NCBI GenBank assembly: GCA_026390075.1
Contig: JAPLGP010000029.1
Coordinates: forward strand, 1-64,000
DNA length: 64,000 nt
From: Campylobacterales bacterium
GTDB lineage: Bacteria > Campylobacterota > Campylobacteria > Campylobacterales > Sulfurimonadaceae
Reading direction: 5' to 3'
Shown here: positions 7,864-28,267 of the stretch, in pieces
Position numbering within the stretch: the first letter of the stretch is position 1
How the letters are laid out: each line of letters opens with the position of its first letter
Translations under genes and position numbers: made by a program
The notes under the pieces: generated by a model
What the model was told of the DNA's origin: nothing
What the model saw: the letters and a program-made list of their open reading frames with translations, nothing else
The model's database searches: none

Positions 7864-7897
7864 AATACAAATTCAAGCAAAGTAGTGATTAGTAAAC

Positions 7898-8356
7898 ATG
7901 CAACAAATAATTGAAGAGATAAAACAGCTCTCTGGTAATATGAATTTATTATATGTGGAAGATAATGATGGTTTACGGGAGAATGTAGAAAAATTACTCA
8001 GCAGAATATTTGGTAATGTTATAACGGCTGAAAATGGTGAAGATGGGTATAACGCTTTTGTTAAGTTCAAACCAAATATTTTAATCACTGATATTAATAT
8101 GCCAAAAATGAATGGCTTTGATATGATAAAAAAAATTAAAGCCAGTGAGCCAGAGTGTAAGATAATCATTCTTTCAGCTTACGACGACAAAGAGTATCTG
8201 CACTCTGCGATTAACTTAGGAATATTTCGTTATTTATCAAAACCAGCAAAAGTTCCAGAACTTGTTCAAGCTATTTATGATTCGGTTATAGATATTCATA
8301 AAGAAGAAAATCGTCGTCTTTTCTTCAGTCAAATTCAAACTATCTTTAATTATTAA
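7898..8356 (+). CDS. Response-regulator receiver domain; N-terminal part of a gene broken by an in-frame stop
   Basis: A CheY-like receiver domain with the acidic pair Glu21/Asp22, phospho-acceptor Asp65 in ITDINMPK, and a KPAK lysine region. It ends at a TAA (8354-8356). Reading on in the same frame gives NNIVVMM... without further interruption into the PAS-like frame ending at 9448, and the junction (FNY-stop-NNIVV) looks like one continuous receiver-to-PAS linker where CAA (Gln) became TAA. As it stands a free-standing 152-residue receiver would be made. It heads an operon with a histidine kinase, its likely phosphate donor. Confidence 0.75.
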   Translation: MQQIIEEIKQLSGNMNLLYVEDNDGLRENVEKLLSRIFGNVITAENGEDGYNAFVKFKPNILITDINMPKMNGFDMIKKIKASEPECKIIILSAYDDKEYLHSAINLGIFRYLSKPAKVPELVQAIYDSVIDIHKEENRRLFFSQIQTIFNY

Positions 8357-8371
8357 AATAACATAGTTGTC

Positions 8372-14199: not shown

Positions 14200-15156
14200 A
14201 TGGGACACAAAAGAGATATGATTGACCATGAGTTGCAAGAAGATTTAGCTATTGAGAAGATAGTGCATCCAGATAGAAGAAAGGATGAAAAAAAGCAAAA
14301 AGAAGAGTTTGAAAAAAGAAATAAAAAAGGTGCACCTAAAAGGGTTGCTGTTTGGGTAAAAGAGAGTGTTGTTGAGTATGAAAATGAGCTAAAGAAACTT
14401 CAAATCGACCTCTTGAAGATGCAAAACCATGTGAAAGATACGGGGCAGAAGATATTAATGATTTTTGAGGGTCGTGATGCTGCTGGAAAAGGTGGAACAA
14501 TCAAGAGAATCAACGAACACCTCAATCCTCGTGGTGCGCGAGTTGTGGCACTTGACAAGCCGAGTGATGTTGAAAAAACGCAGTGGTATTTTCAAAGATA
14601 TTCGCATCATTTGCCTTCTGCTGGGGAGATAGTTCTTTTTGACAGAAGTTGGTACAATCGTGGCGGTGTTGAGCCTGTCATGGGATTTTGTACGCAAGAA
14701 CAGCATAAAGAGTTTTTGCATGATGTTCCAGAGTTTGAGAAAATGCTCATAAACTCAGGCATACAGATTTTCAAATTTTACTTTTCTGTTTCAAAAGAAG
14801 AGCAGGAAAAAAGATTTAAATCAAGAAGAGAAGACCCTCTTGCACAATACAAACTCTCGCCTGTTGATGAGCTTTCACAAGGACTTTGGGATAAATATAC
14901 TATCGCAAAATATTCTATGCTTTTAGCGTCTCACACAGACCATGCGCCATGGATAATTATTCGTTCAGATGATAAGAAAAAAGCTAGAATTAACTGTATA
15001 AAACATATATTAAATCATATAGAGTATCCAGACAAACTCAAAGAAAAACATTTAAAAGCAAGTGATTCCATTCGCATAAACGCAAGTGATGAGATACGAA
15101 TTATGGAGTCGGAGATGTCTCTAAGAAGGGACACACCTAAAAAAGATAAAGAATAA
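14200..15156 (+). CDS. ppk2: Polyphosphate kinase 2 family protein
   Basis: A 318-residue PPK2, which transfers phosphate between inorganic polyphosphate and nucleoside di- or monophosphates. The Walker A loop GRDAAGKGG is at residues 91-99, the lid/Walker B block DRSWYNRGGVEP at about 148-159, and SRREDPLAQYKLSP follows. The N-terminal 50 residues are highly charged. ATG is preceded by GGAG. I cannot tell from sequence alone whether it prefers ADP/GDP or AMP as acceptor. Confidence 0.93.
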   Translation: MGHKRDMIDHELQEDLAIEKIVHPDRRKDEKKQKEEFEKRNKKGAPKRVAVWVKESVVEYENELKKLQIDLLKMQNHVKDTGQKILMIFEGRDAAGKGGTIKRINEHLNPRGARVVALDKPSDVEKTQWYFQRYSHHLPSAGEIVLFDRSWYNRGGVEPVMGFCTQEQHKEFLHDVPEFEKMLINSGIQIFKFYFSVSKEEQEKRFKSRREDPLAQYKLSPVDELSQGLWDKYTIAKYSMLLASHTDHAPWIIIRSDDKKKARINCIKHILNHIEYPDKLKEKHLKASDSIRINASDEIRIMESEMSLRRDTPKKDKE

Positions 15157-15161
15157 AATTT

Positions 15162-15572
15162 TTATTGAGCTTTTATCTCGTCTATAGAGATGTTTAGGAA
15201 CATGCAGACTTGCTCGAATATATCTTTAGCAAACTCGTAGAATTCTTTTGCATCTTTTAAAGTGGGTTTGCCATATGGGAGGAGTCCGAAACTCCCAGGG
15301 TAGCGAGAATCAATGTATAGTTGATTGAGCGTATCTAGCATATCACTATTTTGAACTGTAAATGAGTCAGAAATCAAAGAGTATAGCTTTAATAAATCAT
15401 GTTGTTTGTTGACCTTGGAGTACTTATTTTCAACAAGAGCCTTAAAAGATTTTTCTATCGATTGTTGCGCGTGAAAAGCCGTAATGGAAGTAAGATGCTC
15501 AACCGATACAATATAGCGCATACTTTCAACATCCAAGTAAGCAGCCTTAATCCATTCTTCTATCATATTCAT
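15162..15572 (-). CDS. HEPN domain protein, partner of MNT nucleotidyltransferase
   Basis: A 136-residue helical HEPN-domain protein (AQQSIEKSFKAL in the core, SRYPGSF near the C-terminus, as in the COG2250 type). It overlaps the nucleotidyltransferase gene upstream by 4 bases, the classic HEPN/MNT arrangement. Such pairs are toxin-antitoxin modules in which the MNT protein modifies the HEPN RNase. The typical RNase motif Rx4-6H is not obvious here (NKQHDL occupies a similar place), so RNase activity is uncertain. Confidence 0.8.
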   Translation of the reverse strand: MNMIEEWIKAAYLDVESMRYIVSVEHLTSITAFHAQQSIEKSFKALVENKYSKVNKQHDLLKLYSLISDSFTVQNSDMLDTLNQLYIDSRYPGSFGLLPYGKPTLKDAKEFYEFAKDIFEQVCMFLNISIDEIKAQ

Positions 15573-15901
15573 AGTAAGATGGCACCTTTTGTAAAGAGTT
15601 CCTGAGCAAAAGAGCTGTTAAGGTCTTTGAATTTATCCGCCATGGCTCTTGTATGTACTATCAAATCAATGGCAGACTTACTTCTTAAGTCACGAATTTC
15701 TCTTGATATATTTAAGTAGAGATTGTTGTTTTCTTCAAAGCTCTGAGGAATAAATTCATCCTTTGTAACAACATACAAGTCAATATCACTATCTTCATTA
15801 GGCGTACCATAAGCATAAGAACCAAAGAGTATTATTTTATCAAGATTAAGAGGTTTAAGTCTCTCTATAATTTCATGCTTGAACACTTCAATATCTATCA
15901 T
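15569..15901 (-). CDS. MNT-type nucleotidyltransferase (minimal, antitoxin-like)
   Basis: A 110-residue minimal nucleotidyltransferase with the fold's signature: GSYAYG (Gly27-Ser28) followed by SDID with Asp39 and Asp41 as metal ligands. It is first in a two-gene operon with the HEPN protein. MNT partners of HEPN toxins act by nucleotidylating (AMPylating) a tyrosine of the toxin; whether that holds here is inference. Confidence 0.85.
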   Translation of the reverse strand: MIDIEVFKHEIIERLKPLNLDKIILFGSYAYGTPNEDSDIDLYVVTKDEFIPQSFEENNNLYLNISREIRDLRSKSAIDLIVHTRAMADKFKDLNSSFAQELFTKGAILL

Positions 15902-16040: not shown

Positions 16041-16745
16041 ATGCTAAAAACACTCGGCAAATATATATTTATGATAGAACTTGGATACAAGTATATTAAC
16101 ATTTTTAAGAAAACATTTTTTCATCCATTTATCTCACAAAAGCCAGCGTACACAAAACTCTCACACGACCGTCAGGCATATTCAAATAGTGTCTTGGAAT
16201 TTTTAAATATAGAAGTAAAAGTTATCGGTGAACTTCCAAAAAAAGACAAAATTCTCTATGCCATAAACCACCGCTCACTTCTTGACATCATAGTCATGGA
16301 ACATGTTTTTTCACTCCACCATAAAACAGGTGCATGGATCGCAAAAGAGGAACTTCTTAACGCTTTTTATGGAGATTTTTTCAAATTTAGCGGTTGTATC
16401 AGTGTGGATTTAGAAACTGGAAAAGGGCTTCTGAGTTTTTTTAAAAAGATAAAATCAACACTCACCAAAGTGGATACGCTTAATATCTATATTTTTCCAG
16501 AGGGTGAGCGAAATAAGACGAATAAACTTGGAAAATTTCAAAATGGTGCAGCTAAAATAGCAAAAGCAAATCATCTTGAAATTGTTCCTGTCTTTATAAA
16601 TGAACCTTTAGAAGTAGTTTTCAAAAATGCACCTTATGCAGAGAAAAAGGTTGTGCATGTGCATGTTGGAGCAAGTATAAATCCTGATAATCTTGAAAAT
16701 GAGTATATAGAATTTATGAATAAAGCAAAAGAGGCAAACAAATGA
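16041..16745 (+). CDS. plsC: 1-acyl-sn-glycerol-3-phosphate acyltransferase
   Basis: A 234-residue acyltransferase making phosphatidic acid at the inner membrane. The catalytic HX4D is NHRSLLD (about residues 77-83), and FPEGERN with following lysines is the phosphate-binding block. ATG follows a GGGGGAG ribosome site. Its stop overlaps the pdxJ start by 4 bases, giving the operon plsC-pdxJ-pdxA. Confidence 0.9.
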   Translation: MLKTLGKYIFMIELGYKYINIFKKTFFHPFISQKPAYTKLSHDRQAYSNSVLEFLNIEVKVIGELPKKDKILYAINHRSLLDIIVMEHVFSLHHKTGAWIAKEELLNAFYGDFFKFSGCISVDLETGKGLLSFFKKIKSTLTKVDTLNIYIFPEGERNKTNKLGKFQNGAAKIAKANHLEIVPVFINEPLEVVFKNAPYAEKKVVHVHVGASINPDNLENEYIEFMNKAKEANK

Positions 16746-17533
16746 GTACAATGAAACTAGGCGTAAACATCGACCATGTGGCAGTTTTAAGAGAAGCTAG
16801 ACGCGTAAATGACCCTGATATACTGCAGGCTCTTTTTGTGGCATGTGGAAATGGTGCTGACCAAATTACTATTCATTTACGAGAAGACAGACGACATATT
16901 CAAGATATGGATGCGAAAAATATTATGCAAAACTCGAGTGTGCCAGTGAATTTGGAGTGTTCGATAAATAGAGATATTTTAGACATCGTTTGTGACTTGC
17001 GTCCGCATCGTGCGACTTTAGTTCCTGAAAAAAGAGAGGAAGTAACAACAGAGGGTGGATTGGATGTTTTTGGGTACGAAGAGGAAATTCGTTATGCTAT
17101 CGAGCAGTTGCATGACTCTATAATCCCTGTTTCACTTTTTGTTGACCCGACACTTCTAGCGATGGAAAAATCTCGTGAGTTAGGTGCGGAGATGGTGGAA
17201 CTTCACACGGGAACTTTTGCAAATCTTTTTGCCATGCTCAACTCTTCACTTCCTTACTCAAACCACTCAGTCAAAGAGCTAGAGCTTCCTCGCTATATAC
17301 TCTCAGAACGACTTGAAAAAGCACTTGAAGATATAAAACATTCTGCAAAACATGCCAAAAAAATCGGGCTTGAAGTTGCTGCTGGACATGGACTGAATTA
17401 TCATAATGTGCATGAGATGATGAAGATAGAGGAAATTATAGAGCTTAACATCGGGCAGAGTATCATTGCAAGAAGTGTTTTTAGCGGTTTGGCGGATGCA
17501 GTCAAAGAGATGAAACGACTTACAACCCGATGA
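16742..17533 (+). CDS. pdxJ: Pyridoxine 5'-phosphate synthase
   Basis: Condenses 1-deoxy-xylulose 5-phosphate with 3-amino-1-hydroxyacetone phosphate to form pyridoxine 5'-phosphate, the last ring-closing step of the DXP-dependent vitamin B6 pathway. The 263-residue TIM barrel opens with LGVNIDHVA, contains HLREDRRHI and ends with the phosphate-binding GHGLNYHNV and IGQSIIARS region. It overlaps plsC and pdxA by 4 bases at each side. One GGCATGTGGA copy is at 16840-16849 (Ala-Cys-Gly). Confidence 0.97.
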   Translation: MSTMKLGVNIDHVAVLREARRVNDPDILQALFVACGNGADQITIHLREDRRHIQDMDAKNIMQNSSVPVNLECSINRDILDIVCDLRPHRATLVPEKREEVTTEGGLDVFGYEEEIRYAIEQLHDSIIPVSLFVDPTLLAMEKSRELGAEMVELHTGTFANLFAMLNSSLPYSNHSVKELELPRYILSERLEKALEDIKHSAKHAKKIGLEVAAGHGLNYHNVHEMMKIEEIIELNIGQSIIARSVFSGLADAVKEMKRLTTR

Positions 17534-18444
17534 AACCTAGCATCGCAGTAAGCATTGGCGACCTCAATGGCGTTGGTGCAGAGATAGCACTCAAAGCCCA
17601 CGCAGAAGTCTCAAAACTCTGCAATCCAATCTACTGTATAAATTCCCACATGCTCGAACAAAGTGCAAAACTTTTAGGTGTTAAAGTTCCAGATGATTTT
17701 TCCACATGCCATGTGGAAGGTGAATTTAAAATCAAAATTGGAGTCGTGGACGGGGCATGTGGAAAGTACTCGTACGACTCTTTTATGCGTGCGATAGAGC
17801 TATGTGAAACAAAAGAAGCGGATGCTGTTGTGACGATGCCAATCCACAAAGAGGCGTGGAAATTAGCAGGACTTCATTATGTTGGGCATACGGATTTGCT
17901 AAGAGAGTATTTCAAAAAAGATGCCATTATGATGCTCGGATGTGAAAAGATGTTTGTCGCACTTTACACCGAACACATTCCGCTCAAAGATGTTCCTGCC
18001 ACGATTCAAAAAGAGAAAATCACAACTTTTTTGCTTGATTTATATAAAAGCATCGGGAACAAAAAAGTAGCCGTTTTGGGTCTGAATCCACATGCTGGAG
18101 ACAATGGCGTACTAGGCGATGAAGAGAGAGAAATAGAAGTGGCGATAAAAATTGCAAATGAGACGATAGGCAAAGAACTTTTTTACGGTGCGATTGTTCC
18201 TGACATCGCTTTTACCCCACATTTTCGATCAAACTTTAACTATTTTGTAGCCATGTACCACGACCAAGGTTTAGCTCCGCTCAAAGCTCTTTATTTTGAT
18301 GAGAGCGTAAATATATCGCTGGGCTTGCCAATCATTCGAACCTCTGTTGACCATGGAACAGCCTTTGATATAGCTTACAGGGGCAAAGCAAAAACGCTGA
18401 GTTACATCAATGCAATCAAGAGTGCTATCGGGTTTATAAAGTAA
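17530..18444 (+). CDS. pdxA: 4-hydroxythreonine-4-phosphate dehydrogenase
   Basis: Oxidises 4-phospho-hydroxy-L-threonine, supplying the substrate of PdxJ. At 304 residues it is slightly short but complete: GHTDLL, LNPHAGDNG, the metal/substrate block MYHDQGLAPLK and TSVDHGTAFD are all present. Two motif copies occur: 17701-17710 (antisense) is part of a near-perfect palindrome, ttccacatg-c-catgtggaa at 17700-17718, and 17754-17763 is sense. The gene is last in the plsC-pdxJ-pdxA operon and is followed by a poly-C tract. Confidence 0.96.
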   Translation: MKPSIAVSIGDLNGVGAEIALKAHAEVSKLCNPIYCINSHMLEQSAKLLGVKVPDDFSTCHVEGEFKIKIGVVDGACGKYSYDSFMRAIELCETKEADAVVTMPIHKEAWKLAGLHYVGHTDLLREYFKKDAIMMLGCEKMFVALYTEHIPLKDVPATIQKEKITTFLLDLYKSIGNKKVAVLGLNPHAGDNGVLGDEEREIEVAIKIANETIGKELFYGAIVPDIAFTPHFRSNFNYFVAMYHDQGLAPLKALYFDESVNISLGLPIIRTSVDHGTAFDIAYRGKAKTLSYINAIKSAIGFIK

Positions 18445-18538: not shown

Positions 18539-19372
18539 ATGAAGACAACTCTATTTATTCTCCTTTTGAGTATTTCTTTACAAGCAGAAACAACATCTTC
18601 AGATATTATCCGTTTTAGCGGTGGTACAACTATCCAGCCGATTATAGAAAAAATAGCCGTTCCCTATGAGCAAACAAACAAAGAATCGCTGTATGTAGAA
18701 GGTGGAGGAAGTGAGGTGGGATTGCAAAAAGTCATGAACCATAGTAGCGATATAGCAATGATTGCGCGCAATTTAAGTGAAGAAGAGAAAAGTCGTTTTG
18801 CTTATATGACAATCGCTATTGATGCAGTGGCAGTTATCCATCATAAAAGTCAACCTATCAAAAATTTAACAAAAAAAGAGCTGATTGGGTTTTATGATGG
18901 CTCAATAACAGAGTGCCAAAATAGTGGATGTGAGTGTTCAAATCTAATCATTATCTCAAGAAAAATTGATCGAGCAACTCTAGCAACTTTTGAAAAATAC
19001 AGTGGTTTAAAAAGTCCAAAACGAAAAAATTTACCACCAGATGCAAAACTTATCCGCGGGGATGCTTGGGAAGCGGAGTCCAACATAAATACTCTTCTTT
19101 GGGTTGCTGGACTCAAGGGTGCAATCGCTATTGTCTCACATGCAGAGGCGATTCGGTATGAACAAATGGGCTATCCAATTCGCATTAGTGAAATTGAAAA
19201 TGTTTACCCTTCTCCTGAAACGATTAAAGATGGAACTTATCCTATCCAAAATGATTTAAATCTTGTGTGGAACAAAGACAATTTAAAAGTGGAACGATTT
19301 ATTGGGTGGGTGAAGAGTGGTGGTATGGATTCTAGTATAACTGAACTTGGTTTTGTGGTGGTGGAAAGATGA
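18539..19372 (+). CDS. PstS-like periplasmic substrate-binding protein, copy 1
   Basis: A 277-residue phosphate-binding-protein-like (PBP type 2) exported protein. The signal peptide is MKTTLFILLLSISLQA. The ligand loops resemble PstS: SGGTTIQPI, GGGSEVGL and the hinge region ELIGFYDGSI. I choose the ATG at 18539 because GTAGGGAA lies just upstream and it opens the signal peptide; the frame extends upstream to 18503. No pstCAB permease genes are nearby. Instead the stop overlaps the start of a membrane diguanylate cyclase (ATGA), suggesting it acts as a ligand sensor for that enzyme. Confidence 0.85.
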   Translation: MKTTLFILLLSISLQAETTSSDIIRFSGGTTIQPIIEKIAVPYEQTNKESLYVEGGGSEVGLQKVMNHSSDIAMIARNLSEEEKSRFAYMTIAIDAVAVIHHKSQPIKNLTKKELIGFYDGSITECQNSGCECSNLIIISRKIDRATLATFEKYSGLKSPKRKNLPPDAKLIRGDAWEAESNINTLLWVAGLKGAIAIVSHAEAIRYEQMGYPIRISEIENVYPSPETIKDGTYPIQNDLNLVWNKDNLKVERFIGWVKSGGMDSSITELGFVVVER

Positions 19373-20895
19373 AACGCTCGTATTATACACTCTGGTTACC
19401 AACTCTCATAACAAGCATTATGGTAGTTGCTTTGTTTTGGGCTATGCATATTTTTTTACATCACAACTTGGCTGAGATGATTCAAGCACATAAACATTCG
19501 CAAGAACTCACTAAAAAAATAGAAAAAATGGTTTCTTCAACGCTCAACGCTACCTTTTTGGGAAATGAAAAAGGTTTTTTAAAAACAGTAGAACTTTCTA
19601 ATCAAATCCATGACGATATATTGCTCATAAAAAAAGATAATATGTACGATACAGACTCTTTGTTTAGGAGCTACGAACAGCTCTACAAAAAGCTTATCAG
19701 TGCGGTTTCATACACTAGTGAAAATCGTCTTGGAGATGCAAAAGTAGCACTTGAAGAGGTTGAGAGTTATTCTAATAATCTTGAAATGCAGATGAGTGGA
19801 TTAAATAATTATTTTTCTCAAAGAGAAAAAGAGGTTGAGAGAACACTTTTTATCATCATGATACTCTCGGGTGGATTGTTGGTATTTATCGCACTTTTTA
19901 ATGGTTTTTATTTGATTCCTCGTCAAGTTATTCGTCCTCTTGAGGAGTTTGCAGAAGCACTTAAGGGGAGTGAAGAAAAGTATCGTATTGTTGCCGATTG
20001 GACTTATGATTGGGAATACTGGCTGGATGTCGATAAAAGTATAGCTTATATTTCTCCATCGGTAGAGAGAATCACTGGATACACTCCAAATGAATTTATG
20101 CAAAATCCCTCTTTGCTTGTTGACATTATCCATCCTGATGATACTCCTAATTGGAGTAAACATGTGAGTGAAGCCCATTTGCCTAATCGCCCAGAAGAAG
20201 ATGCTCAGGAAGTTGAGTTTCGTGTTGTTCGCAAGGATGGTGCTATTATTTTTGTAGATCATATATGCAGACCAGTATATACGCATGATGGAATTTACAT
20301 GGGAGTGCGTGTCGCCAACCGAGATATAACCCAAAAAGTAGCGATTTTAGATGAGTTAAAAGAAAAAAATCGTCTTCTTGATACTTTGGCTACTACGGAT
20401 GGATTGAGTGCTCTTTTTAATCGTCGCTATTTTGATGAAGCACTCATTAAAGAAGTAGAGTATGCTAGGAGAACAGCAAATGCTTTAGCTCTTGTCATGT
20501 GTGATATTGATTATTTTAAACTTTATAATGACACTTATGGTCACCAAGAAGGAGATAAGGTAATCAAGCAGGTTTCTGATGTGCTAAAAGCAACTTTTAG
20601 TCGTACCATAGATGTTGTTGCCCGTTATGGAGGAGAGGAGTTTGTGATACTTCTTCAAGCAACGCCTCCAGCAGAAGCATGTAAACTTGTAGAATTGGCA
20701 AGAGAAAATATAGTAAAACTGGGTATTAAACATAAAGGGTCAAAAGTAGCACCGTTTGTTACAATGAGTTTTGGCGTTGTAAGCTGTGTTCCTGATGTAC
20801 TCTCAAATGGAGATAGATTACTTACTCAATCCGATAAAGCACTTTACCAAAGTAAAAAAAATGGGCGTAATTGCACTACACTTTTGGAGTGTTGA
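19369..20895 (+). CDS. Membrane-bound PAS-GGDEF diguanylate cyclase
   Basis: A 508-residue enzyme that makes c-di-GMP from two GTP. Two membrane helices (about 10-33 and 158-178) flank a helical periplasmic sensor of about 120 residues; a PAS domain (about 205-320, YISPSVERITGY) and a GGDEF domain follow, with the active-site loop GGEEF and FNRRYFDEAL, DIDYFKLYND. It overlaps the PstS-like gene, its likely periplasmic partner. The first 20 and last 20 codons reappear in the remnant at 21730-21913, showing that the whole two-gene unit was duplicated. Confidence 0.9.
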   Translation: MKRSYYTLWLPTLITSIMVVALFWAMHIFLHHNLAEMIQAHKHSQELTKKIEKMVSSTLNATFLGNEKGFLKTVELSNQIHDDILLIKKDNMYDTDSLFRSYEQLYKKLISAVSYTSENRLGDAKVALEEVESYSNNLEMQMSGLNNYFSQREKEVERTLFIIMILSGGLLVFIALFNGFYLIPRQVIRPLEEFAEALKGSEEKYRIVADWTYDWEYWLDVDKSIAYISPSVERITGYTPNEFMQNPSLLVDIIHPDDTPNWSKHVSEAHLPNRPEEDAQEVEFRVVRKDGAIIFVDHICRPVYTHDGIYMGVRVANRDITQKVAILDELKEKNRLLDTLATTDGLSALFNRRYFDEALIKEVEYARRTANALALVMCDIDYFKLYNDTYGHQEGDKVIKQVSDVLKATFSRTIDVVARYGGEEFVILLQATPPAEACKLVELARENIVKLGIKHKGSKVAPFVTMSFGVVSCVPDVLSNGDRLLTQSDKALYQSKKNGRNCTTLLEC

Positions 20896-20902
20896 GAAGT
20901 TT

Positions 20903-21733
20903 ATGCCAGCTATGTTTATCCTCTTTTTGAGCATGCTATTACAAGCAGAAATAATGCCTTCGGATGCTTTGCATTTTAGTGGTGCTACTACCATTCAGCC
21001 AATTATAGAAAAAATATCTCGTGCTTACTTCTTATCTGCTGGAGGGTCGTTGCAGATAAAAGGAGGAGGAAGTGAAACTGGATTAAAAGATATTGCCAAT
21101 CAAAGTAGCGATATAGCCATGGTATCACGCAATTTAAGCGATGAAGAAAGAGCTAATTTCACTTATATGACGATAGGATACGATGCTTTAGCAATTATTT
21201 ATCATAGTTCCCAACCTATAAAAAATTTAACAAAAAAAGAGCTTATAGAACTTTATGATGGCTCGATTTGTGATTGGAAAGAAATCGGAGGTAAATCCAT
21301 AAATCTTATTGTTATCTCAAAAAAAATAGATCGCGGAACTTTAGCAGTTTTTGAAGCATATACTGGTTTAAATAGTCCTAAGCATAATAATTTACTCCCA
21401 AATGCAAAACTTATTCGAGCAGATGCTTGGGAATCAGAGGCTAATATTAATGCCACACTTTGGGTTTCAGGATTAAAAGGTGCTATTGGGTATGTCTCTT
21501 ATGCAGAAGCAAATCGATATGAACAAATGGGCTATCCAATTCGTATTAGTGCGATTGAAAATGTTCATCCATCTATTGAAACGATTAAAAATGGAACTTA
21601 CCCTATAAAAAGAGAATTAAATCTTGTATGGAATAAAGAGAATTTAAAAGTTAAACAATTTATTGGGTGGGTTAAGAGTGGTGGTATGGATTCTACTATA
21701 GCTGAACTTGGTTTTGTGGCGGTGGAAAGATGA
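20903..21733 (+). CDS. PstS-like periplasmic substrate-binding protein, copy 2
   Basis: A 276-residue close paralogue of the gene at 18539, aligning along its whole length (SGATTIQPI, GGGSETGL, KNLTKKELIELYDGSI, GWVKSGGMDS, ELGFVAVER). I place the start at 20903, after the stop of the cyclase and behind GAGAAG; the open frame extends into the cyclase gene but that part is overlap only. The signal peptide is MPAMFILFLSMLLQA. Its own cyclase partner is deleted, so it could feed the intact cyclase with a second ligand, or be drifting. Confidence 0.83.
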   Translation: MPAMFILFLSMLLQAEIMPSDALHFSGATTIQPIIEKISRAYFLSAGGSLQIKGGGSETGLKDIANQSSDIAMVSRNLSDEERANFTYMTIGYDALAIIYHSSQPIKNLTKKELIELYDGSICDWKEIGGKSINLIVISKKIDRGTLAVFEAYTGLNSPKHNNLLPNAKLIRADAWESEANINATLWVSGLKGAIGYVSYAEANRYEQMGYPIRISAIENVHPSIETIKNGTYPIKRELNLVWNKENLKVKQFIGWVKSGGMDSTIAELGFVAVER

Positions 21734-21913
21734 AACGCTCGTATTATATATTTTGGCTGTTAACTCTTGTGACAAGTTATAAAGTGGGGGGATTAAATCA
21801 AGAGAGTTATTTTGGGTGAAGTCTGGACAAAAAATTGGTTGACCCCACCCGATAAAGTACTCTGGCAAAATAAAAAAAATGGGCGTAATTGCATTACACT
21901 TTTGGAGTGTTAA
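21730..21913 (+). pseudogene. Remnant of the duplicated diguanylate cyclase
   Basis: The first ~50 bases (atgaaacgctcgtattata...) match the start of the cyclase at 19369, and the last ~65 bases match its end (gataaag-act...ggagtgtt). About 1.4 kb between them is missing and replaced by roughly 75 bp of unrelated DNA. The frame stops after 29 codons. The ATGA overlap with the upstream PstS-like gene is preserved as in the intact unit. The filler contains gtgggg (about 21784) and ccccac (about 21843) as inverted arms. Confidence 0.85.
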
Positions 21914-21917
21914 AGAG

Positions 21918-22049
21918 TAGACTTCTTGCAAAACTCATTTTTAGATTGCTTCACTTTGTTCGCAATGACGGTCATTGCGAGGAAAGCGAAGCAATGACCG
22001 TCATTGCGAGGAAGAATGACGAAACAATCTAGGTTTTGCAAGAAGTCTA
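21918..22049. repeat. MITE-like palindromic repeat, copy 2
   Basis: 132 bp with perfect 17-bp terminal inverted repeats, tagacttcttgcaaaac (21918-21934) and gttttgcaagaagtcta (22033-22049). The core agattgcttc...cgcaatgacggtcattgcg is present with an extra internal unit containing gcaatgaccgtcattgcg, making this the longest copy. Together with the cyclase remnant it accounts for the 324-base gap between genes. Confidence 0.9.
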
Positions 22050-22057
22050 GGTAATAT

Positions 22058-23337
<1,280 letters not shown>

Positions 23338-24616: not shown

Positions 24617-24648
24617 CAGAGTCTAACTCTTACTATAAAACATCAAAA

Positions 24649-24748
24649 GACTTCTTGCATAACCCATTTTTAGATTGCTTCACTTCGTTCGCAATGACGG
24701 TCATTGCGAGGAAGAATGACGAAGCAATCTTGGGTTTGCAAGAAGTCT
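24649..24748. repeat. MITE-like palindromic repeat, copy 4
   Basis: 100 bp, arms agacttcttgca (24649-24660) and tgcaagaagtct (24737-24748), core agattgcttcacttcgttcgcaatgacgg...cattgcg...gaagcaatct. The outer arms match copy 2. Confidence 0.9.
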
Positions 24749-24766
24749 AAAGAAAAATCGATACTT

Positions 24767-25191: not shown

Positions 25192-26208
25192 GTGAGTCGT
25201 ATCCCATTTTTTATTATTTTAATAACTTTACTTACACTCTTCTCTTCGTGTTCAGATGATAAACCGCTTAAAAATACAAAAAATTTACAAACAAATATCT
25301 CCTCAGTTGCACCAAAAGTACAAAATACAAAAAAATTAGCTTATATTGTTACAGATAGCAGTATCCCATTTTGGGCGATCATGGGGCGTGGTGTTAAAAA
25401 TCGTGCCGATGCATTAGGTTATGAACTTGAAATTTATAATGCTGAAAATAGCGCAAAACTTGAATTAGAACTTACTGTCAAAGCGATAAAAGAGAATGTT
25501 TCTGGAATTATTGTATCTCCAAGTACCTCCTCGGCATGTGTAACTATCTTAAAACTTGCGAAGGGTGCTAATATTCCCGTTGTGATATCTGACATTGGTA
25601 CAGATAGCGGTGAGTATGTTTCTTATATCTCTTCAAATAATAGAGAAGGGGCTTATGATATAGGAAAAGTTCTTGCTAAAAAGATGGTTGCCCTTGGCTT
25701 TGAAAAAGGGAGAGTTGGGATTGTAGCTATACCTCAAAAAAGGCTCAATGGACAAGCAAGAACAGCTGGTTTTATGCAAGCCATGGATGAAGTAGCAATT
25801 AAAGGTGCGGATATTAAGCAGTTAGTAACTTGGAGCGAAGAGGAAACTTATACTTTTTCCAAAGAGATGATAGAGAGTTATCCTGACCTTCGTGCAATAT
25901 GGTTACAAACTTCTAATAGCTACAACGGAGCACTTCGAGCAATTGCTGAGAGTGGTAAAAAAGATGAAATTTTATTGATTGCATTTGATGCCGAGCCTGA
26001 ATTTTTAGAGCTTATTCCAAAAGGAATTCTTGCTGCTTCAGCAATGCAACAGCCTTATTTAATGGGGCAAGAGGCAGTGAATGCAATGGATAAGTACCTG
26101 AGTGGCAAGGAAGTTCAAAAAAATATTCAGTTACCAATTCTTTCAATATCTGCAGAAAATATAATAAAAAACTTACCTACAATTCAAAGGAATGTTCTTG
26201 GAATTTAA
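25192..26208 (+). CDS. Sugar-type periplasmic binding lipoprotein
   Basis: A 338-residue type-1 periplasmic binding protein (RbsB/LacI-like fold) anchored as a lipoprotein: the signal peptide ends in a lipobox-like FSSCSD with Cys at residue 20. Typical elements are AYIVTDSSIPFW, IKENVSGIIVSPS and IPVVISDIG. GTG start behind AAGGAA. There are no ABC transporter genes beside it; its 3' end overlaps by 17 bases a membrane GGDEF-EAL protein, so it likely presents a ligand to that enzyme. A near-copy of the dispersed motif (ggcatgtgta) is at 25534. Confidence 0.83.
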   Translation: MSRIPFFIILITLLTLFSSCSDDKPLKNTKNLQTNISSVAPKVQNTKKLAYIVTDSSIPFWAIMGRGVKNRADALGYELEIYNAENSAKLELELTVKAIKENVSGIIVSPSTSSACVTILKLAKGANIPVVISDIGTDSGEYVSYISSNNREGAYDIGKVLAKKMVALGFEKGRVGIVAIPQKRLNGQARTAGFMQAMDEVAIKGADIKQLVTWSEEETYTFSKEMIESYPDLRAIWLQTSNSYNGALRAIAESGKKDEILLIAFDAEPEFLELIPKGILAASAMQQPYLMGQEAVNAMDKYLSGKEVQKNIQLPILSISAENIIKNLPTIQRNVLGI

Positions 26209-28267
26209 AAATATTACCCACGAACGCTCTCTTTATGTAACGCTTGGAGTGATTATTGTCTTAGTTGTTACGATAATAATGTCTATACATACTGCTTATG
26301 TCTATATGGATACAAAAAATAATATATTCCAAGGAATGAAACAAAGCTCAAGGCATATTATTGTTTCATTGCAAAAGAATGTTATGGATTTAATGAAATC
26401 GTATTCTATAAATGAGTATGACAAGCTTGTATTGAATGAAATGGAAGGTCGTGATAATTTTGCTATTATAGTTGAAGATTATAACATGGGTAAAATTTTA
26501 GGTGAAAAAGCATTTTTAAGCGGTAAGATTCGAGATGCTGAGGGAAACATTATTGATTATGATTCAAAAAATAGTGAACAAAATAAACAATTAGAAGCAT
26601 GTTACTATTCAGATAAATATGATATTACGACTGACTCAGGCGATAAACTAGGCACTATTGCTATTTATATTTCAAATATTTCCATGAATGCACAACTCAA
26701 TAAAATAATTATAGGGAGCATCATTAACCTAGTTTTACTATCTTTGTTATTTCTTTTGTCCCTTTTTATAATAATTCATTTTTTTATCTTGAAACCACTT
26801 TCCGATATTATTAGCTGTATTAAGCATAGTGATCATGATGGAATACCAGTTGCATTAATACCTAACCATGGCTCTAAAGAAATTTTTCTCCTTTCAAATA
26901 CGATGAATAATATGATTATTTCTATAAGAGACTCAAGAGTCGCATTAAAAGCGCAAAAAAATGCCCTGCATTATCAAGCTAATCATGACGCTCTCACAGG
27001 ATTAGCAAATCGTATTCTCTTTAATGATAGGCTAGAACAATCCATAATAAAAGCTAAAAACAATAGTACCAAAGTCGCTCTTTTTTTTATCGACCTTGAT
27101 CACTTTAAAAAAATAAATGATTCACTTGGTCATGAAATAGGTGATAAAATTCTCAAAGTAGTAACACAAAGACTGAATGAAACGATATGCAAAGAAGCTA
27201 CTTTAGCCCGTTTAGGTGGGGATGAGTTCAGTATAATTGTTGAAGATTTAAGACAAGGTCAAGATGCTTCACTTTTAGCAAATAAACTTATAGAACTTCT
27301 TTCACAACCTCTCACTATTGAAGATAATCTTCTTTATATATCGAGTAGTATTGGTATAAGTATCTATCCAGATGATGGTGTATCTGCTCAAAACCTTATA
27401 AAATATGCGGATGCAGCTATGTATAAGGCTAAAGATGAGGGAAGAAATAACTTTCAGTATTACAGTGCAGAAATGACAGAATTAGCATTTGAGAGAGTTG
27501 TAATGGATACAAGTCTTAGGGAGGCACTTAAAAATGGAGATTTTGTAGTTTATTATCAGCCTCAAGTCAATGGTAATAATAATAAGCTTGTAGGTATGGA
27601 AGCGCTTGTTCGATGGCAACACCCTATAATGGGACTTGTTGCGCCATCAAAATTTATTCCTCTAGCAGAAGAGACAGGAATGATTATACCATTAGACCAA
27701 TATGTTATGAGATGCGCTATGACACAAATAGCAAAATGGTATAAAGAGGGATTTAAACCAGGAGTTGTAGCTCTTAATCTTGCAATGAAACAACTGCATC
27801 AAAAAGATTTTATATCTATACTTGAAACTATGCTCAAAGAGACAGAATGTAAAGCTGAGTGGATAGAGCTGGAAGTAACAGAGAGTCAGATTATGACAAA
27901 TCCAGAAGAGGCGATTAAAATCCTAAAACAGATTAACGACATGGGGATTAAGCTCGCCGTAGATGATTTTGGAACGGGCTACTCTTCTCTCTCTTATCTC
28001 AAACGATTGCCAATCGATAAGCTGAAAATTGACCAGTCCTTTATAAGAGACCTTCCTGAAGATGAAGAAGATGCGAGTATTACAAAAGCCGTTATTGCTC
28101 TTTCAAAAAGTCTCAATCTTAGAGTTATAGCTGAGGGCGTAGAAACAAAAGAGCAAAAAGAGTTTTTAATAGAAAATGGATGCAACAATATTCAAGGATA
28201 TTTTTATGGCAAACCTATGCCAGCGAATGAGATGGAAAAAGTTTTATCTAAAGGTTTTAACTCTTAA
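26192..28267 (+). CDS. Membrane GGDEF-EAL c-di-GMP enzyme
   Basis: A 691-residue protein with a membrane helix near the N-terminus (about 10-33), a periplasmic domain of about 130 residues, a second helix (about 168-195), then GGDEF (ARLGGDEFSII, intact) and EAL (GMEALVRWQ, DDFGTGYSSLSYL, IAEGVETKEQ, intact). It could both make and break c-di-GMP; the net activity cannot be read. It overlaps the binding lipoprotein upstream. The gene ends 15 bases before an inverted motif pair. Confidence 0.92.
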   Translation: MFLEFKNITHERSLYVTLGVIIVLVVTIIMSIHTAYVYMDTKNNIFQGMKQSSRHIIVSLQKNVMDLMKSYSINEYDKLVLNEMEGRDNFAIIVEDYNMGKILGEKAFLSGKIRDAEGNIIDYDSKNSEQNKQLEACYYSDKYDITTDSGDKLGTIAIYISNISMNAQLNKIIIGSIINLVLLSLLFLLSLFIIIHFFILKPLSDIISCIKHSDHDGIPVALIPNHGSKEIFLLSNTMNNMIISIRDSRVALKAQKNALHYQANHDALTGLANRILFNDRLEQSIIKAKNNSTKVALFFIDLDHFKKINDSLGHEIGDKILKVVTQRLNETICKEATLARLGGDEFSIIVEDLRQGQDASLLANKLIELLSQPLTIEDNLLYISSSIGISIYPDDGVSAQNLIKYADAAMYKAKDEGRNNFQYYSAEMTELAFERVVMDTSLREALKNGDFVVYYQPQVNGNNNKLVGMEALVRWQHPIMGLVAPSKFIPLAEETGMIIPLDQYVMRCAMTQIAKWYKEGFKPGVVALNLAMKQLHQKDFISILETMLKETECKAEWIELEVTESQIMTNPEEAIKILKQINDMGIKLAVDDFGTGYSSLSYLKRLPIDKLKIDQSFIRDLPEDEEDASITKAVIALSKSLNLRVIAEGVETKEQKEFLIENGCNNIQGYFYGKPMPANEMEKVLSKGFNS

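Follow-up and report, generated by a model that had tools for sequence, protein, structure and literature searches.

A probably imported sensor-cyclase pair beside a second, apparently native PstS-like binding protein in a Sulfurimonadaceae genome

Between pdxJ-pdxA and tgt, the genome of a Campylobacterales bacterium of the Sulfurimonadaceae (assembly GCA_026390075.1) carries two genes for PstS-like periplasmic binding proteins, PBP1 and PBP2, and a single complete gene for a diguanylate cyclase (DGC), C1, the second binding protein gene being followed by the relic of another cyclase. We read this locus as encoding a cyclase that would be gated by a binding protein, in the manner of NspS-MbaA, and beside which a second, native sensor would have been retained after the loss of its own cyclase. 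We give this reading a probability of about 0.5. The window, that is, the whole stretch of DNA analyzed, comprises 64,000 nucleotides (positions 1 to 64,000 of the forward strand of contig JAPLGP010000029.1), in which the relevant features are the following:

16742-17533: pdxJ, upstream of pdxA
17530-18444, + strand: pdxA, native upstream flank according to DNA trees and dS
18539-19372, + strand: PBP1, 277 aa, a PstS-like binding protein of the periplasm that has a signal peptide and "A-type" residues at its probable cleft (PF12849, 85.8 bits)
19369-20895, + strand: C1, diguanylate cyclase, 508 aa (Pfam GGDEF, PF00990, 156 bits, and PAS)
18539-20895, + strand: block probably imported from an L051-like donor of the sister clade, judged by fourfold-site identity and dS
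20903-21733, + strand: PBP2, 276 aa, the other PstS-like binding protein, with "S-type" residues at its probable cleft (PF12849, 98.5 bits)
21658-21748, + strand: tract homogenized with 19297-19387, across the PBP1-C1 junction
21730-21776, + strand: front end of the second-cyclase remnant, 47 bp (BLASTN against the first unit)
21777-21848, + strand: 72 bp within the remnant, origin without significant match
21849-21913, + strand: back end of the remnant, with TAA stop
21918-22049, strand undefined: MITE-like dispersed inverted-repeat element adjoining the remnant
22058-23176, - strand: tgt, native downstream flank (dS 1.36-1.50 to sisters G138/G172)

From 18539 to 21913, the order on the + strand is PBP1, C1, PBP2, and cyclase relic. 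The initial annotation of this DNA had described a repeated order of binding protein, ATGA, and cyclase, which we recovered: binding protein and cyclase genes overlap by ATGA in both units (19369-19372 and 21730-21733), as they also do in orthologous units, and the two binding protein genes show 75% DNA identity across 886 bases, in an alignment (BLASTN E 6e-175) that extends into the beginning of the second cyclase. PBP2 starts with an ATG at 20903, 7 bp past the C1 stop. As had also been proposed, the second cyclase is lost save for two ends that match the first, and the sizes estimated there for its parts (~50, ~75, and ~65 bases) measure 47, 72, and 63 bp. The 63 bp of the back end (21849-21911; the TAA stop is at 21911-21913) are identical to C1 at 57 positions (BLASTN E 9e-21) and to the sister cyclases at 52-54, C1 thus being the closest. 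Moreover, this back end is altered at A491, Y493, and S495, positions that are invariant in seven cyclases, which is to be expected for a dead gene. As for the intervening 72 bp, searches of the genome itself, the genus, plasmids, and viral contigs returned only short chance matches; an insertion-sequence end was considered as their source and rejected, no copy being present in any of these four sets. The MITE-like inverted repeat next to the remnant, whose core is AATGACGGTCATTGCGAGGA, occurs again at 24648-24749 and in dozens of copies in the genome. Some 4 kb downstream, at 25192-28267, an unrelated Peripla_BP_4 binding protein gene overlaps that of a 691-aa GGDEF-EAL protein, a pair that could be another binding-protein-gated c-di-GMP system.

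Both binding proteins belong to the PBP_like_2 family (PF12849), and PBP1 shares 87% amino acid identity with its counterpart in L051. Modeling predicts a PstS fold for PBP2 (pLDDT 86), the top PDB matches being the phosphate-binding PstS proteins 1twy, 4gd5, and 4n13 (TM 0.70-0.76), with 24-26% identity in a structure-based alignment. The two proteins nevertheless differ from PstS (TIGR02136) in having signaling partners and altered SGT and SR loops, and in falling below the curated cut-off of the PstS models (TIGR02136/TIGR00975), with 95.6 and 128.8 bits against the 206.6 required; the other PstS-like protein of this genome, C16 on another contig, is also under this cut-off (138.9 bits). 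In the phosphate-contact loop of PstS, R-x-x-x-S-G-T, the position of the SGT serine is occupied by an arginine in both PBP1 and PBP2, and where PBP1 displays R141 and A146, PBP2 has K and G. C1 is organized as a transmembrane segment, a periplasmic helical region, a second transmembrane segment, a PAS domain, and a GGDEF domain, without EAL. Its GG(D/E)EF motif (GGEEF, residues 421-425) and RxxD I-site (R412-D415) are intact and invariant in 7 orthologues, and C1 therefore has the sequence hallmarks of an active diguanylate cyclase. The periplasmic part matches no Pfam family; residues 1-200 were modeled as four long helices with low confidence (pLDDT 69 and pTM 0.35 for the C1 model), of which only the helical N-terminal pattern is relied on here.

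Each of three sister genomes, L051 (a Lac Pavin MAG), L052 (Sulfurimonas E14), and L053, has one unit at the identical site between pdxJ-pdxA and tgt, and PBP2 is found in none of the 134 other genomes of the genus (135 including this one). The full duplication that the initial annotation proposed to look for in related strains was not found in these genomes; nor did we see what it had named as contrary evidence, a sister devoid of both cyclases or a remnant located elsewhere. Other Sulfurimonas carry a single unit at another site, for example beside tpx. The neighbors of this kind of binding protein are varied. Several Sulfurimonas have a hybrid histidine kinase gene immediately after it; in Sulfuricurvum the next gene encodes a PAS-GGDEF protein, and in G311 and a spirochaete the gene that follows is that of a chemoreceptor. 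The N-terminal parts of the cyclase and the kinase are weakly similar (24%, E 8e-6). PstC never comes directly after the close family members sampled; where it does follow, the matches are more distant and are transport proteins. Since its neighbors are a cyclase, a hybrid kinase, or a chemoreceptor, the family is a signaling module with exchangeable outputs. A cluster of binding protein and hybrid histidine kinase genes is present in the Sulfurimonas genome G040 (L024:3091-13778), including PhnD-like binding proteins that adjoin or are fused with kinases. A literature search joining PstS, diguanylate cyclase, and Sulfurimonas found nothing relevant.

The two binding proteins carry different residue sets, which probably mark the binding cleft. 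PBP1 and seven other DGC-linked Sulfurimonas binding proteins have the A-type set A76/R141/A146/R162/I198/H201, while PBP2 and L092 (genome G158) have the S-type set S76/K141/G146/H162/Y198/Y201. Positions 76, 141, and 146, by alignment with 4gd5 and 1twy, fall in what we take to be the loops holding phosphate in PstS proteins; positions 198 and 201 are at a strand that probably forms the hinge. Among the 105 columns that are uniform in PBP1 and the seven DGC-linked proteins, PBP2 departs at 16 and L092 at 15; eight of these departures coincide (p 1.7e-4), six of them with the identical residue. The shared S-type residues may stem either from convergence or from an old common ancestor, the grouping of PBP2 with L092 having a p-AU of 0.10. 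The S-type set is not a histidine-kinase type, an idea ruled out by L057/L093 and L092, which are DGC-linked and have K141/G146. L092, the sole such binding protein of its species, adjoins a full cyclase of C1's family. Each residue type is thus found alone beside a C1-type cyclase elsewhere, and this genome holds one of each. The earlier suggestion that PBP2 was kept for a new ligand is plausible on these residues.

Synonymous distances and trees separate the histories of the two units. For plsC, pdxJ, pdxA, and tgt, this genome lies outside L051-L053, with dS mostly 0.9-1.5, and the DNA trees of pdxA and pdxJ place it outside the three sisters as well (dS mostly 0.9-1.4). In contrast, dS to the sisters is 0.36-0.69 for PBP1 and 0.52-0.63 for the cyclase, which is the level among the sisters themselves. 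Fourfold-site identity to the sisters is 0.69 for unit 1 versus 0.55 for the flanks, with p values for the individual species from 1e-4 to 4.5e-3, and the sisters compared with each other show 0.66-0.71 in unit and flanks alike. Moreover, PBP1 groups with L051 (support 100/99) and is nested inside the sister clade, unlike the flanks, and for cyclase codons 1-347 a sisters-only clade is rejected (p 0.011). As for PBP2, its codons 1-200 resemble the flanks, with dS of 0.92-1.06 to the three sisters and 1.04 to PBP1, NG86 values near 1 being imprecise; its fourfold identity is 0.60 (n=131), and comparison with the 0.69 of unit 1 gives a p of 0.03, comparison with the 0.55 of the flanks a p of 0.35. 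Because dS is sister-like in PBP1 and the cyclase and flank-like in PBP2, unit 1 is likely the newcomer, which recombination probably brought in from a species of the sister clade, and PBP2 is likely, together with its relic, the resident, native to the lineage. Because substitutions at third codon positions approach saturation, and because the comparisons with the different sisters depend on one another, the case for import of unit 1 is strong and that for a native PBP2 is weaker. The block's upstream boundary falls close to where pdxA ends or between the genes. Two orders of events would fit: the import may have been added beside the resident unit, or a tandem duplication within the lineage may have come first and its first copy been overwritten later.

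Parts of these histories have been blurred. The segment 19297-19387, made up of the final 76 bp of PBP1 and the initial 19 bp of C1, agrees with 21658-21748 at 25 of 29 polymorphic sites (permutation p 0.0002), and PBP1 shares more here with PBP2 and the relic than with L051. Similarity to unit 1 is seen in the rear part of PBP2 and in both ends of the relic, and in trees the C-terminal third of PBP2 falls within the local clade; the homogenized tract explains this grouping and has erased part of PBP2's history. An import ending inside the cyclase, near 20410, had been suggested by a rise in genome-private sites and was rejected, dS being equal in the two parts (0.51-0.57 vs 0.52-0.66); the rise is due to recombination between L051 and L053. 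In these two, the last third of the cyclase (7878-8360 in both) is nearly identical, with dS of 0.07, although the flanks differ, and this appears to be a recent exchange. Upstream of the locus, the ppk2-like gene at 14200-15156 encodes a protein 94-96% identical to those of L052/L053 and 84% to those of L051/G138, which also points to these species recombining often. Between it and plsC, two adjoining genes on the - strand (15162-15901), which look like a HEPN/nucleotidyltransferase toxin-antitoxin pair in their sequence, are missing from that site in L051 and L053.

How PBP2 came to stand beside C1 can be explained in other ways. The initial annotation proposed a tandem duplication in the lineage with deletion of the second cyclase, PBP2 diverging in place toward a new ligand. 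It is supported in part: two homologous units do lie in tandem, the remnant preserves both ends of the second cyclase, and its back end is closest to C1; moreover, with L092 included and the diagnostic columns excluded, PBP2 falls in the local clade (96/99). A simple duplication followed by divergence in place does not agree with the synonymous histories, which differ between unit 1 and PBP2 codons 1-200 (a difference that is weak for PBP2 alone, at the p of 0.03 given above): the anomalous distance to the sisters affects PBP1 and the cyclase and not PBP2, and PBP1 nests within the sister clade while the flanks do not. We consider plain duplication rather unlikely. The better-sampled protein tree, where a long branch leads to PBP2 within the local clade (73/98), is equally compatible with a duplication followed by accelerated change. 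It is less probable still that the two residue types descend from an ancient paralogue pair of the genus ancestor, from which most species lost one member and this genome neither. Early trees, in which PBP2 was outside all DGC-linked binding proteins with 95-98% support, pointed that way until L092 was added and this support was lost. A position outside all other DGC-linked binding proteins still has a p-AU of 0.65, and the S-type residues are common to PBP2 and L092, but at the columns that vary among A-type proteins PBP2 is nearest the local clade, and this history would require two genomic locations and the loss of a copy many times independently.

A close rival, although we find it doubtful, is that PBP2 is a relict, its native cyclase having been lost after the imported unit took over, so that an intact PBP2 would be carried uselessly on the operon transcript. 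The loss of its own cyclase and the absence of PBP2 from the other 134 genomes of the genus speak for such a relict. Against it stands the integrity of PBP2, correctly noted at the outset: 276 codons are open, all 36 positions invariant in 12 relatives are retained, and dN/dS is 0.22-0.30, near orthologue values, while the adjoining relic is altered at invariant sites. Under neutral drift at 5-10% substitutions, the chance that PBP2 would stay stop-free is 0.22-0.05, which is suggestive only. That PBP2 is a phosphate transport protein located here by chance is very improbable; its PstS-like fold would suit this role, but there are no pst genes here, another PstS-like protein is encoded elsewhere in the genome, and the relatives of PBP2 adjoin signaling proteins. 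We favor, over a diverged duplicate, a native sensor next to an acquired pair of sensor and cyclase, and two-input use as the leading, though unproven, function.

In the favored reading, a retained native sensor beside a binding-protein-gated cyclase, the PBP1-cyclase pair would have come by recombination from a sister-clade species, and PBP2 and the relic would be the remains of the lineage's own unit. A periplasmic PstS-like protein would bind a small ligand, probably an oxyanion, and in its loaded form would dock on C1 at the helical region in the periplasm, much as NspS docks on MbaA; docking would act through the PAS domain to alter GGDEF activity and change c-di-GMP. PBP2 would compete for, or add to, the binding protein site on C1 with a different ligand. 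Given that PBP2 is intact, that it has lost its own cyclase, and that no other cyclase of this genome has a C1-type sensory half, PBP2 most likely still feeds a second signal to C1, and both sensors may thus act on one cyclase.

Two homologous neighboring binding proteins that serve one membrane partner are known from ArgT/HisJ, which share HisQMP. The partner there is a transporter, whereas here it is a cyclase, and the copies here seem to be of different recent origin. In the NspS-MbaA system of Vibrio cholerae, a periplasmic binding protein contacts the periplasmic part of an inner-membrane c-di-GMP enzyme, and its ligand state sets c-di-GMP (PMC8079147). Here too, the binding protein gene is directly upstream of, and overlaps, a membrane GGDEF gene, but NspS-MbaA combines a polyamine-family binding protein with a GGDEF-EAL enzyme, in contrast to the PF12849 PstS-like protein and PAS-GGDEF enzyme of this locus, which moreover has two binding proteins for one enzyme. 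AioX/ArrX are oxyanion-binding periplasmic proteins for signaling rather than uptake (PMC5908839), comparable, by their description, as signaling-dedicated binding proteins, with a different output, namely a histidine kinase and transcription. Few cases are known of c-di-GMP enzymes gated by binding proteins; a 2022 review, which concerns fused domains, counts 27 binding-protein families with c-di-GMP enzymes, one of them studied (PMC8846402).

The locus offers one binding-protein family with three outputs and two residue types, and one genome with both types beside a single cyclase. Tentatively, the cyclase might be served by two interchangeable periplasmic sensors, one native and one imported, for different ligand classes, and would then be a two-input c-di-GMP receptor made by transfer, in a module family (PstS-like protein and helical membrane sensor) that freely swaps its output among cyclase, phosphorelay, and chemotaxis. 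This makes it testable whether a receptor may gain a second input via a foreign homologue placed beside the native one, rather than via the slow divergence of a duplicate.
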